Of a stretch of DNA of 64,000 nt, positions 12,026 through 15,788 are shown in pieces. The notes beneath the pieces are model-generated. The model did no database searches, was not told the origin of the DNA, and saw only the letters and a list, made by a program, of their open reading frames with translations. The stretch covers positions 144,501-208,500 of the forward strand of contig NC_015555.1 of assembly GCF_000189775.2 (NCBI RefSeq). Direction: 5' to 3'. The stretch comes from Thermoanaerobacterium xylanolyticum LX-11 (lineage in GTDB: Bacteria > Bacillota > Thermoanaerobacteria > Thermoanaerobacterales > Thermoanaerobacteraceae). A program made the translations under genes and the position numbers. How positions within the stretch are numbered: the first letter of the stretch is position 1; each line of letters starts with the position of its first letter.

Positions 12026-12709
12026 ATGGGCGAAAACAAAAAAATATATATAGTTGACGATGATAGAAATATATGTGAAATAATTTCACTTTATCTTGAA
12101 AAAGAAGGTTTTGCAACAGTAAAGATCAGTGACGGGATTACAGCATTGAACAAAATAAAAGAGGAACTCCCCTTGCTTATAATACTTGATTTGATGCTTC
12201 CCGGCATTGATGGAATGACATTGTGCAAAGAGGTGAGGAAATTCACAAATGTGCCTATTATAATGCTTACAGCCAAAGGAGATACATTTGACAAGGTATT
12301 GGGGCTGGAGATAGGCGCCGATGATTACATCGTAAAGCCTTTTGATGGGAAAGAATTGGTTGCTCGTGTTAAAGCTGTGTTGAGAAGGTATGAACATGAG
12401 GAAAATGACAGCGACAGTGTCACATATCCTGATCTTTCTATAAGCTTAAGCGAGTACAAGGTGAAATACAAAGGCGAAAATGTTGACCTTACGCCGAAAG
12501 AATTGGAGCTTTTTTACTTCTTGTGTACTCATCCAAATAAAGTGTTTACGAGAGATCAATTGTTAGAAAACGTATGGGGATACGAGTACATGGGGGACAG
12601 CCGAACTGTCGATGTGCACATAAAACGTTTGAGAGAGAAAATAGGGGATGGTCCAAACTGGAAATTAACTACTGTATGGGGTGTGGGATATAAATTCGAG
12701 GTGAAATGA
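12026..12709 (+). CDS. OmpR/PhoB-family response regulator
   Basis: 227 aa. Receiver domain 1-120 with acidic pocket D11-D13, phosphoacceptor D55 (ILDLMLPG) and the conserved lysine of DDYIVKPF. The C-terminal winged helix (about 130-227) ends in RTVDVHIKRLREKIG. ATG 12026 follows AAGAGGGG. The partner kinase starts 1 bp after its stop. Two sets of three direct hexamers at 11-bp period lie downstream, in front of htrA, and are probable binding sites for this protein. Confidence 0.95.
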   Translation: MGENKKIYIVDDDRNICEIISLYLEKEGFATVKISDGITALNKIKEELPLLIILDLMLPGIDGMTLCKEVRKFTNVPIIMLTAKGDTFDKVLGLEIGADDYIVKPFDGKELVARVKAVLRRYEHEENDSDSVTYPDLSISLSEYKVKYKGENVDLTPKELELFYFLCTHPNKVFTRDQLLENVWGYEYMGDSRTVDVHIKRLREKIGDGPNWKLTTVWGVGYKFEVK

Positions 12710-12710
12710 T

Positions 12711-14132
12711 TTGAGCAGAAATAGGCTCTTTAGAAGGCTGCTTTTTACAAATATTGCAATAATACTGCTTACAATGTCGATACTTTCCGTCCTTTTTTAC
12801 ATCATGTTTGAAAATTACTATTTTCGCGATAAAGAAAAGATAATGGTAGAAGAAGGAAAGCAGATAAATACCGTGTTGAACGATTACCTCATAGGAGATA
12901 TAGATATCGACAGACTCAATCAGGATCTGAATGTCATTGACCGGCTTATAAACGCATCGATATGGGTTGTAAGTACAGATGGACGGATATATATACAGTC
13001 TAAGAATTTTGAAAAAAATTGGACAGGTGTCACATTAAGCAAAGATGACATCAAAAGCATTTTAAAAGGTGAGACAATTGTAAGAAGGGGATATTTTGGC
13101 GGCAGGTTTACGCAGCCTGTTTTGACTGTTGGATTTCCGCTTGTACTGGCTGGGAAGATTCAAGGTGCCATATTCATGCATGCTCCTATAGTAGAGATGC
13201 AGAAAACCTTGATGGACATATTTTTTATAATGCTTTTAGCCATAGCCATATCCATAATAATAGCATTTATACTTATTTCTTATACATCAAAGAGAATCTC
13301 TAATCCTTTAAAAGAGATGAGCATTGCAACAGAAAAAATGGCAAAAGGTGATTTTTCAACAAAGATAAACGTTGTAGATGACGATGAAATAGGAGATTTG
13401 GCTAAGTCTTTCAATATAATGTCAAGCGAATTGGGCAGGATGGATAATGCAAGGAAAGAGTTTGTGGCTAATGTTTCACATGAGCTTCGCTCGCCTTTGT
13501 CAACGATCCAAGGTTATATAGATGGCGTAGTGGATGGGACTATACCTGCGGAGAAATCCAAATTTTATTTGGAGATAGCTCAAAAAGAGACGAGACGAAT
13601 GTCTCGATTAATATCTGAACTTTTAGATATAACGAAAATGGAATCAGGGGCTTTTCCGTTAAACATATCGGAATTTGATATAAACGAGCTTATAAGGCTG
13701 ACCATAATAAAGATGGAAGCAAGGATAAGCGATAAAGATCTCATGGTTAAGGTGGACTTTGAAAGCGACAAAGAAATTGTAGAGGCAGATAAAGACAAAA
13801 TAGAACAAGTGCTTACTAATCTAATAGATAATGCAATTAAATTTTCAAATCCCGGTGGTTATATACACGTATCTACAGAGAAGGTGAAAGAAAAAGTTCA
13901 TGTAAGAGTCCAAAATAAAGGCAAGACGATACCACCTGATGAAATTGACCATATATGGGACAGGTTTTACAAAGTTGACAAGGCCAGAAGCGGTAGTCCC
14001 GGTGTCGGATTAGGGCTTTATATTGTGAGAAGCATCATAAATCTTCATAATGAGGATATATGGGCTACCAGTAGCGATGCAGACGGTACTACATTTACTT
14101 TTACACTTAAGTCAAAAAAAGTTAAGCAGTAA
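12711..14132 (+). CDS. Membrane sensor histidine kinase
   Basis: 473 aa with TTG start behind GAGGTGAAATGA. Transmembrane segments at about 10-31 and 166-190 flank an extracellular sensor of about 135 residues. HAMP (191-245) and HisKA follow, with the phospho-acceptor H257 in SHELRSPLSTIQGY. The HATPase domain has LTNLIDNAIKFS and SPGVGLGLYIV. With the downstream htrA, the module resembles the CssRS-HtrA secretion-stress circuit of Bacillus. That role is inferred from context. Confidence 0.94.
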   Translation: MSRNRLFRRLLFTNIAIILLTMSILSVLFYIMFENYYFRDKEKIMVEEGKQINTVLNDYLIGDIDIDRLNQDLNVIDRLINASIWVVSTDGRIYIQSKNFEKNWTGVTLSKDDIKSILKGETIVRRGYFGGRFTQPVLTVGFPLVLAGKIQGAIFMHAPIVEMQKTLMDIFFIMLLAIAISIIIAFILISYTSKRISNPLKEMSIATEKMAKGDFSTKINVVDDDEIGDLAKSFNIMSSELGRMDNARKEFVANVSHELRSPLSTIQGYIDGVVDGTIPAEKSKFYLEIAQKETRRMSRLISELLDITKMESGAFPLNISEFDINELIRLTIIKMEARISDKDLMVKVDFESDKEIVEADKDKIEQVLTNLIDNAIKFSNPGGYIHVSTEKVKEKVHVRVQNKGKTIPPDEIDHIWDRFYKVDKARSGSPGVGLGLYIVRSIINLHNEDIWATSSDADGTTFTFTLKSKKVKQ

Positions 14133-14143
14133 AATAAAATTTT

Positions 14144-14186
14144 TACAATTTGTTCATACTTTATTCATAAATTAAGGTTATAATAA
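14144..14186 (+). promoter_or_regulatory. First OmpR-type promoter (three direct hexamers plus -10)
   Basis: TTTACA (14144), TTCATA (14155) and TTCATA (14166) are spaced exactly 11 bp apart. Nine bases after the last hexamer comes TATAAT (14181-14186). There is no canonical -35. This is the layout of promoters activated by PhoB/PhoP-type regulators bound in place of the -35. Confidence 0.65.
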
Positions 14187-14191
14187 TAATC

Positions 14192-14266
14192 GAGAGAGAG
14201 AAAAGCCTCTCCTTGACCTCCCTTATTATAGCAGCTCGAGCCACCCCTCGGGCTGCATTTATTTTA
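14192..14266 (+). ncRNA. Candidate C-rich small RNA of about 75 nt
   Basis: Starts just after the first OmpR-type promoter and ends at a strong terminator (14231-14266). The leader contains CCTCTCC and GACCTCCC, unpaired C-rich stretches complementary to ribosome binding sites, and the terminator loop is also C-rich (CCACCC). No ORF fits. Such C-rich motifs are typical of Firmicute sRNAs such as RoxS/RsaE and FsrA. It could instead be only the trailer of the kinase operon. Confidence 0.45.
14231..14266 (+). terminator. Terminator of kinase operon / candidate sRNA
   Basis: GCAGCTCGAG (14231-14240) pairs with CTCGGGCTGC (14247-14256), 10 bp with one G.U, loop CCACCC, followed by ATTTATTTTA. 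Confidence 0.85.
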
Positions 14267-14294
14267 CCCATCGACATGAAATTATTAAAAATAA

Positions 14295-14337
14295 TTTACA
14301 ATATGTTCACAGTTTATTAAAAATTCTAATTTATAAT
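14295..14337 (+). promoter_or_regulatory. Second OmpR-type promoter, directly before htrA
   Basis: TTTACA (14295), TTCACA (14306) and TTAAAA (14317) at 11-bp period, then nine bases, then TATAAT (14332-14337). The architecture is identical to the promoter 151 bp upstream. It places the start site about 25 bp before the htrA codon. Confidence 0.68.
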
Positions 14338-14371
14338 GTAATCATGAGAGATGATAAGGAGGATGATGAAT

Positions 14372-15727
14372 ATGGATTTTGAAAATGAACAAAACAAAAA
14401 TATAGGCGAAAATGAAATAGATAATTTCAAGGCTGACGATGCCTTAGGTTCTGATGACATAAAAGGCGAAAATATAGATGACACTCAGGAAATTCCAGCA
14501 ACATATAGCGCCGCGGAAAGCGGAACCTATACGACACCAAGGGTAGAATTTAGAAGCAACAAAAAAAGCTTAGGCAAGATGGTTAAAAGATTCAGAAGAA
14601 GGATGCTTGTTTCATTTGTATCTGTTGCATTGATTGCAGCACTTATCGGTGGTGGAACTGTCGCAGGAATCATGAAATACACTAATTTAGGGCAACAGAC
14701 ACAGGTTATAAATAGGTACTTGCCACTTTCATCATCAGACAATAGCAATTTTAACTTGATTGCCAATATAGCTAAAATTGTAAGTCCTTCTGTTGTTGGA
14801 ATAGATACAAGCGTATCATACTCCAATGGATTTGGAAGTGCACTGGTGCCTGAAGGCAGTGGTTCTGGAATAATCATCGATTCACAAGGCTATATTGTAA
14901 CAAACAACCATGTTGTGGATGGTGCTTCTAAGATAACAGTAAATTTATCTGATGGTAGAAAGTTCCCTGCCCAACTTATAGGAAAGGATTCAAAGACTGA
15001 CTTGGCAGTATTGAAGATAAATGCTACGAATTTGGTTCCGGCAAAATTAGGTGATTCATCAAAACTTGAAGTGGGAGATCTGGCAGTTGCTATAGGAAAT
15101 CCTCTCGGTGAAAGCTTTGCAGGTACGGTTACAGCAGGTATAATAAGTGGTCTTAACAGAAATCTTCAAAGCGATTATGGCCCGGTTAACCTCATTCAGA
15201 CAGATGCAGCTATAAATCCTGGAAACAGTGGTGGACCTTTAGTAAATAGCAATGGTGAAGTTGTCGGGATAACAAGTGTAAAGTTAACATCTACAGGTGG
15301 TTCGAATACTCAAGATCCATTTGGAATGTTCCAGAGTCAAGGCACGCCTGTTGAAGGAATGGGATTTGCGATTCCGATAAATGAAGCAAAACCTATAATA
15401 GATGACTTGATAAAACACGGATATGTAGAAAGACCAATGATGGGTGTAAGCGTACAGGAAGTAACACAACAAGATGCAGCGCAGTACAATATACCAGTTG
15501 GACTTTATATAGCGCAAGTACAGCAAGGAAGCGGTGCTGATGAAGCTGGACTTCAACCAGGTGATGTGATAACAGCAGTAGATGGCACAAAAGTACAGAC
15601 TTTTGATGCACTGCAAAGCATAATAGCTAAGCATAAAGTTGGTGACACGATTACTGTTACATTCTGGAGAAATGGCAGGACAATGAGTACAAAAGTAAAG
15701 CTTATGAGCAGTTCAAATGCACAATAA
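14372..15727 (+). CDS. htrA: HtrA/DegP-like membrane-anchored serine protease
   Basis: 451 aa. An acidic cytoplasmic N-terminus (1-75) and one membrane segment (about 79-100) precede the trypsin-like domain, with catalytic H180 (TNNHVVDG), D210 (SKTDLAVLKI) and S286 (NPGNSGGPL). A C-terminal PDZ domain covers about 345-450. It degrades or refolds misfolded proteins at the outer face of the membrane. AAGGAGG at 14356-14362 fits ATG 14372; several upstream ATGs overlap the ribosome binding site. An OmpR-type promoter precedes it, so control by the neighbouring two-component system is likely. Confidence 0.95.
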   Translation: MDFENEQNKNIGENEIDNFKADDALGSDDIKGENIDDTQEIPATYSAAESGTYTTPRVEFRSNKKSLGKMVKRFRRRMLVSFVSVALIAALIGGGTVAGIMKYTNLGQQTQVINRYLPLSSSDNSNFNLIANIAKIVSPSVVGIDTSVSYSNGFGSALVPEGSGSGIIIDSQGYIVTNNHVVDGASKITVNLSDGRKFPAQLIGKDSKTDLAVLKINATNLVPAKLGDSSKLEVGDLAVAIGNPLGESFAGTVTAGIISGLNRNLQSDYGPVNLIQTDAAINPGNSGGPLVNSNGEVVGITSVKLTSTGGSNTQDPFGMFQSQGTPVEGMGFAIPINEAKPIIDDLIKHGYVERPMMGVSVQEVTQQDAAQYNIPVGLYIAQVQQGSGADEAGLQPGDVITAVDGTKVQTFDALQSIIAKHKVGDTITVTFWRNGRTMSTKVKLMSSSNAQ

Positions 15728-15746: not shown

Positions 15747-15788
15747 AGTTCTTTACCAGTCTCCTCCCGCTGGTAAGGAACTTTTTTT
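15747..15788 (+). terminator. htrA terminator
   Basis: AGTTCTTTACCAG pairs with CTGGTAAGGAACT over 13 bp (one G.U), followed by a T-run. Confidence 0.88.

Follow-up and report, generated by a model that had tools for sequence, protein, structure and literature searches.

In Bacillus, the two-component system CssRS together with HtrA constitutes a secretion or envelope stress response, and no small RNA is known to belong to it. In Streptococcus, the OmpR-type system CiaRH controls htrA and, in addition, several csRNAs, as described in PMC3091779. According to the same paper, the csRNAs consist of two stem-loops and an unpaired linker complementary to the Shine-Dalgarno sequence, the CiaR box has the form TTTAAG-N5-TTTAAG and lies 10 bp upstream of TATAAT, and homologues of CiaH are reported in streptococci only. 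In Listeria, the five copies of LhrC need LisRK, and their CUCCC motifs block a Shine-Dalgarno sequence in the context of envelope stress; PMC4132741 places three CU motifs in loop A, the linker and the terminator loop, and states that no LisR consensus is known.

Organization of the kinase-htrA locus

The window analyzed here is a stretch of 64,000 nucleotides of the Thermoanaerobacterium xylanolyticum LX-11 genome, and all features given below in window coordinates lie on its forward strand. According to Pfam, it contains the genes for an OmpR/PhoB-type response regulator (12026-12709, hereafter regulator 12026), for a membrane sensor histidine kinase with HAMP, HisKA and HATPase domains (12711-14132), and for HtrA, a membrane-anchored trypsin-like protease with a PDZ domain (14372-15727; Trypsin_2 and PDZ_2), the last preceded by the Shine-Dalgarno sequence AAGGAGG (14356-14362). 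Regulator 12026, the presumed activator of the two promoters P1 and P2, matches PF00072 (Response_reg) and PF00486 (Trans_reg_C) above the cut-offs, that is, a receiver plus a winged-helix C-terminal domain; its best NCBIfam models, MtrA, YycF and PhoB, all score below the cut-offs, and its nearest solved structure is MtrA. The HtrA protein matches TIGR02037 and NF047968, both below the cut-offs. The htrA gene is followed by a terminator (15747-15782) whose loop carries TCTCCTCCC; the same loop position holds ATTCCTCCC in genome G005, and such a sequence is absent in G009. This loop is possibly part of an anti-Shine-Dalgarno RNA derived from the 3' end.

As the initial annotation had claimed, the gap between the kinase gene and the htrA start contains two promoters of one architecture, each with three hexamers at 5/5 spacing, followed by 9 bp and TATAAT. 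P1 (14142-14184), which starts two bases before the position first assigned to it, reads TTTACA-ATTTG-TTCATA-CTTTA-TTCATA-AATTAAGGT-TATAAT and is predicted to drive a small RNA, and P2 (14295-14337) reads TTTACA-ATATG-TTCACA-GTTTA-TTAAAA-ATTCTAATT-TATAAT and is predicted to drive htrA. Both lack a -35 element, again as annotated, the best match to TTGACA at spacers of 15 to 19 being 2 of 6 positions.

The argument that the matching spacing is not a product of chance was likewise upheld. With up to three mismatches, the window contains two matches and 100 dinucleotide shuffles contain a mean of 0.00; when 252 spacing combinations were compared using relaxed hexamers, 5/5/9 alone occurred, and it occurred twice. 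The genome scan that the annotation had proposed gave three exact matches in 2,534,358 bases against none in the reversed control, eight against none with up to three mismatches, and 18 against four with a looser pattern. The third exact match forms the promoter of another htrA gene (htrA2). The spacing and hexamers of P1 and P2 are kept in all 20 genomes examined from the family Thermoanaerobacteraceae, and the spacer letters vary. The pattern is real and far above chance.

A predicted small RNA behind P1

An intrinsic terminator, consisting of a stem-loop with a 10-pair stem (14231-14256) and a T-rich tail (14257-14265), parts P1 from htrA, its stem starting 46 bases 3' of the P1 -10 box. 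Because this covarying terminator stands between the two, P1 is not a plain htrA promoter, and the assumption in the initial annotation that both promoters serve htrA was abandoned. Judged from the sequence, htrA should be served by P2 alone, and P1 should yield a separate RNA of about 73 nt (14191-14263, predicted ends) made up of a 5' hairpin, a CU-rich linker and the terminator. Positions 14190-14268 have a predicted fold of -30.1 kcal/mol (z = -5.9), which comprises the 5' hairpin, the open linker CCUCCCUUAUUAUA and the terminator. Its conserved core in the alignment is CTCTCCTTGACCTCCCTT (14207-14224), which is near-exclusive to the family when searched as CTCTCCYTGACCTCCCTTWT. The anti-Shine-Dalgarno linker CCTCCCTTATTATA (14217-14230) is unpaired in the MFE and centroid structures, with a mean unpaired probability of 0.91 in the window copy and 0.88 over 26 copies, and its sequence is similar to the anti-Shine-Dalgarno tail of 16S rRNA.

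By BLAST and a covariance model (R1, built from 20 sequences with the terminator helix only), the RNA was found in all 20 Thermoanaerobacteraceae genomes examined, each time with E < 1e-20; the E-values of this short-calibrated model are rough. The core CUCUCCYUGACCUCCC is identical in the 20 alignment rows. The terminator helix is paired in 95.6% of cells, and in five of its ten pairs both partners have changed between relatives. Only 70% of cells retain the 5' hairpin, which shows no two-sided change and is mostly lost in the copies termed B below. Beyond the family, none was detected in 17 other genomes of the class except for two weak matches in family f4 (E 3e-4 and 9e-4), which were rejected since the RNA architecture proved absent on reading. 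Further weak matches, in G001, in G007 and at position 933662 of the window genome, were inspected as well; the last is a look-alike in a 3' UTR. At L040:7163-7228, an exported-protein gene with a three-hexamer promoter has a 3' UTR that ends in ACCTCCCTATAAAGCAGCC and a terminator and looks similar to the small RNA (E 7.6e-4). An exact scan for the 20-base core in 84,980 species genomes returned 12 stretches: ten in Thermoanaerobacterium, Thermoanaerobacter, Caldanaerobacter or a Clostridia MAG, and two in Saccharibacteria, the latter number being about the estimated chance expectation. Rfam 15 has no family that matches at the RNA in any A, B or C copy that was scanned, which rules out a known identity within that release, and the openly licensed papers searched include none on the RNA.

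There are up to three copies of the RNA per genome. In each of the 20 family genomes, an A copy occupies the gap between kinase and htrA, and P2 follows it. The B copy is present in four genomes, including that of the window, and stands upstream of an efflux-adaptor gene, which was called in the window genome only; there, it precedes an operon of a MacA/HlyD-like adaptor, an ABC ATPase and a permease, with a similar promoter of its own (L040:2720-6372). G005 has two further copies, about 1.1 kb apart, which appear to be a tandem duplication, the second with a decayed terminator (L103:3700-5600). All 26 copies carry the three-hexamer promoter at equal spacing, with 22-24 of 24 consensus positions. 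One of the extra G005 copies is followed on the same strand by no frame of at least 50 codons for about 0.6 kb, which favors action in trans.

Comparison with CiaRH and LisRK-LhrC

The initial annotation had likened the locus to CssRS-HtrA. The type of circuit, an envelope-stress system with htrA, agrees with this view, but since P1 is predicted to yield an RNA, the closest parallel is CiaRH or LisRK-LhrC. With the streptococcal system (PMC3091779), the locus shares direct repeats of N5 spacing placed about 10 bp before TATAAT. It also shares the plan of an RNA in which an unpaired, Shine-Dalgarno-complementary linker joins two stem-loops; the A copies follow this plan, and the B copies follow it mostly without the 5' stem. 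The site of the RNA promoter is found in the htrA promoter too, where the same regulator may act. The boxes are alike in geometry and not in letters: the CiaR box has two TTTAAG repeats, whereas the site described here, TTTACA-N5-TTCAYA-N5-TTMAWA-N9-TATAAT, has three TTHAYA-like hexamers. The recognition helices differ as well, VVEVYVSKVRKKL being given for CiaR in Table 1 of PMC3091779, against TVDVHIKRLREKI in regulator 12026.

With LisRK-LhrC (PMC4132741), the locus has in common a multicopy small RNA, a link to a two-component system, a proposed setting of envelope stress and CUCCC in an unpaired stretch. However, the RNA has no Rfam match, and compared with the three CU motifs of LhrC it has one that is surely open, in the linker; CCACCC occurs in the terminator loop in some rows of the genus, and loop A has none. 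By analogy, the locus most likely works like CiaRH with its csRNAs and LisRK with LhrC; since box, recognition helix and RNA sequence differ, it would be a system of the same kind that belongs to neither family.

The regulator of P1 and P2

The 330 bp behind the kinase gene were scanned at 14 loci outside the family, which comprised the best orthologues of the kinase (36-46% identity in other families); the paralogue and partial loci L116-L131, and hence G037, G039 and G040, were left out. The three-hexamer site with the 9-bp spacing and -10 box scored above all 2000 dinucleotide shuffles in eight of the 14 loci, and among the same 14 its score was reached by 2 of 2000 shuffles at one further locus and by 34 of 2000 at another. 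Four loci, from families f2 and f3 and with no htrA next to the kinase, were at shuffle background for the site. In the five f4 genomes read, the site lies directly 5' of htrA with no room for an RNA (htrA assigned by Pfam for two of them), and in G079 and G383 htrA is also the next gene after the kinase. The order regulator-kinase-htrA was read in the window, in G009 and in genomes of f4, f47 and f137. In other families, the unit behind the site is htrA or another small RNA. That the site follows the two-component pair while the downstream unit changes is the best support for regulator 12026 as its ligand.

Within the window genome, eight of the 18 sites found with the looser pattern have at most one mismatch. 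They precede sRNA-A, htrA, htrA2, sRNA-B, an ABC transporter ATPase gene and a gene for an exported protein of no recognized family; the assignment is less certain for the last two, a lipoprotein-like gene and a second exported-protein gene. The two-mismatch sites include the efflux-adaptor gene (MacA/HlyD type) behind sRNA-B and two related membrane-anchored genes, whose tentative designation as PIG-L-like was taken from their sequence and not from a family search. Collectively, these sites read as an envelope or export regulon. A further OmpR-type regulator gene and a kinase gene are found at a distance of about 4 kb from htrA2, which has the same promoter type (L004:1-4344).

The presence of 11 full-length OmpR-type regulators in the genome, one of them the regulator near htrA2, means that control by the neighboring regulator is supported and yet unproven, and it leaves room for the idea that the sites are bound mainly by a different one, for instance a PhoP-, YycF- or MtrA-like paralogue, and that the neighboring pair is not the controller. 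We take the TTHAYA repeats at an 11-bp period to resemble Pho-type boxes, which would suit such a paralogue, as would the sub-cut-off MtrA, YycF and PhoB models that lie nearest to regulator 12026. Against it, the site stays behind the orthologous kinase in other families despite the changing downstream unit, and the own-genome matches that were read belong to envelope or export genes, with no recognized phosphate genes among them; we therefore regard this explanation as improbable. The claim that regulator 12026 activates both promoters thus holds for the link to the adjacent system, which the site behind orthologous kinases supports; that regulator 12026 itself binds the P1 and P2 sites, we infer.

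Two further explanations concern the product of P1. It might be a cis-acting htrA leader, an attenuator whose terminator is opened by a signal so that read-through adds to P2. The position of the RNA between kinase and htrA throughout the 20 family genomes and that of the B copies upstream of the efflux-adaptor gene are consistent with such a leader, kept synteny being, according to PMC2965389, the usual mark of a cis element. However, the downstream gene has a separate promoter of this type directly behind the terminator (P2, and 929128 for the B copy), the fold offers no alternative antiterminator, the best-conserved part is the linker and not a switching pair, and one extra G005 copy is followed by no same-strand frame of at least 50 codons for about 0.6 kb; this makes a leader rather unlikely. 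That P1 encodes a tiny peptide instead of a working RNA is far less probable still: a TTG-initiated frame does cross the linker, but no Shine-Dalgarno sequence lies ahead of it, the terminator loop varies in length by at least one base among relatives, which would break the frame, and the core is conserved at nearly every base rather than by codon.

Proposed circuit and candidate targets

We consider it likely, on the sequence evidence above, that P1 and P2 both answer to one envelope-stress two-component system, by which HtrA and a translation-blocking small RNA are co-induced. Upon a presumed stress signal, the active OmpR-type regulator would bind the three tandem half-sites 9 bp 5' of the -10 box, standing in for a -35 element. 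Transcription from P2 would give htrA mRNA and hence HtrA, which would serve quality control beyond the membrane. Transcription from P1 would give the terminated RNA, about 73 nt long, with CCUCCCUUAUUA as the open CU-rich linker that would mimic the anti-Shine-Dalgarno sequence. By covering the ribosome-binding sites of other mRNAs in trans, the RNA would block their translation, and the net effect would be that protease capacity goes up and the synthesis of some proteins goes down at once.

Candidate targets were sought by complementarity. By duplex energy, htrA ranks eighth among the 49 start regions of the window and is not preferred, so it was set aside as a cis target. Extended sites complementary to the linker showed no enrichment in the own genome (16 non-self sites against 10 in the control), and over 20 genomes they were fewer than in the reversed control (20 non-self against 73, with nine of the 20 loci read). 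The start site AATAAGGGAGATCRAG-ATG recurs in seven Thermoanaerobacterium genomes, two of which were read (L194 and L195, at 1501); it is a near-full complement of the linker, and the gene behind it has no assigned function. Start sites of folP-like genes, named from sequence and not by family search, were read in three genomes. Neither site exceeds general Shine-Dalgarno complementarity, and both were rejected as specific targets. By analogy with the csRNAs and LhrC, the RNA may act through short seeds that lie beyond the resolution of the searches described here. Since the A and B copies stand upstream of genes, a role in cis is also conceivable.

A different RNA in the same slot

In G038 (f6) and in G074 and G150 (both f42), the same promoter type stands behind the kinase gene; after it come an unrelated short predicted RNA with its own terminator and then a YdcZ-type exporter gene. 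These second RNAs lie around position 1501 on the minus strand of L165 (G038), L156 (G074) and L157 (G150). Their core GTGRCAGGAAGYACARGC is antisense to ...ACASCH... coding sequence of multihaem cytochrome c genes in the respective genome. Besides the RNA itself, G038 has three such sites and G074 two, all in frames with 7-12 CXXCH motifs, in a comparison biased by the use of a pattern taken from the RNAs themselves; G150 has two near matches to the core, in frames with six CXXCH motifs each. Over 39 aligned bases, for none of the three RNAs is the best cytochrome of its own genome surpassed in identities (30, 29 and 28; tied for G074). With G-U pairs included, the G150 RNA pairs better with a cytochrome of another genome, G198 (32), than with that of its own genome (30). 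A scan of 398 genomes with the pattern gave matches in seven; in the remaining four, G124, G155, G198 and G318, they fall in coding sequence, which contains CXXCH in three cases and lacks it in one.

It is tempting, although rather doubtful on present sequence data, to regard the position behind the kinase as a recurrent small-RNA slot, in which the envelope-stress system has repeatedly recruited different RNAs. If this is true, a single RNA would reach many paralogous cytochrome mRNAs within their coding regions through the haem-binding CXXCH protein motif.

Implications

With the predicted RNA, the thermophilic anaerobes used in biofuel work would gain a small-RNA family that Rfam 15 lacks. 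It would also extend the protease-plus-small-RNA stress circuit of streptococci and Listeria to Clostridia, with a different regulator box and a different RNA. Moreover, across related families the regulator-kinase-htrA locus is found both with the RNA and lacking it, so that the entry of a small RNA into a two-component regulon is open to direct test.
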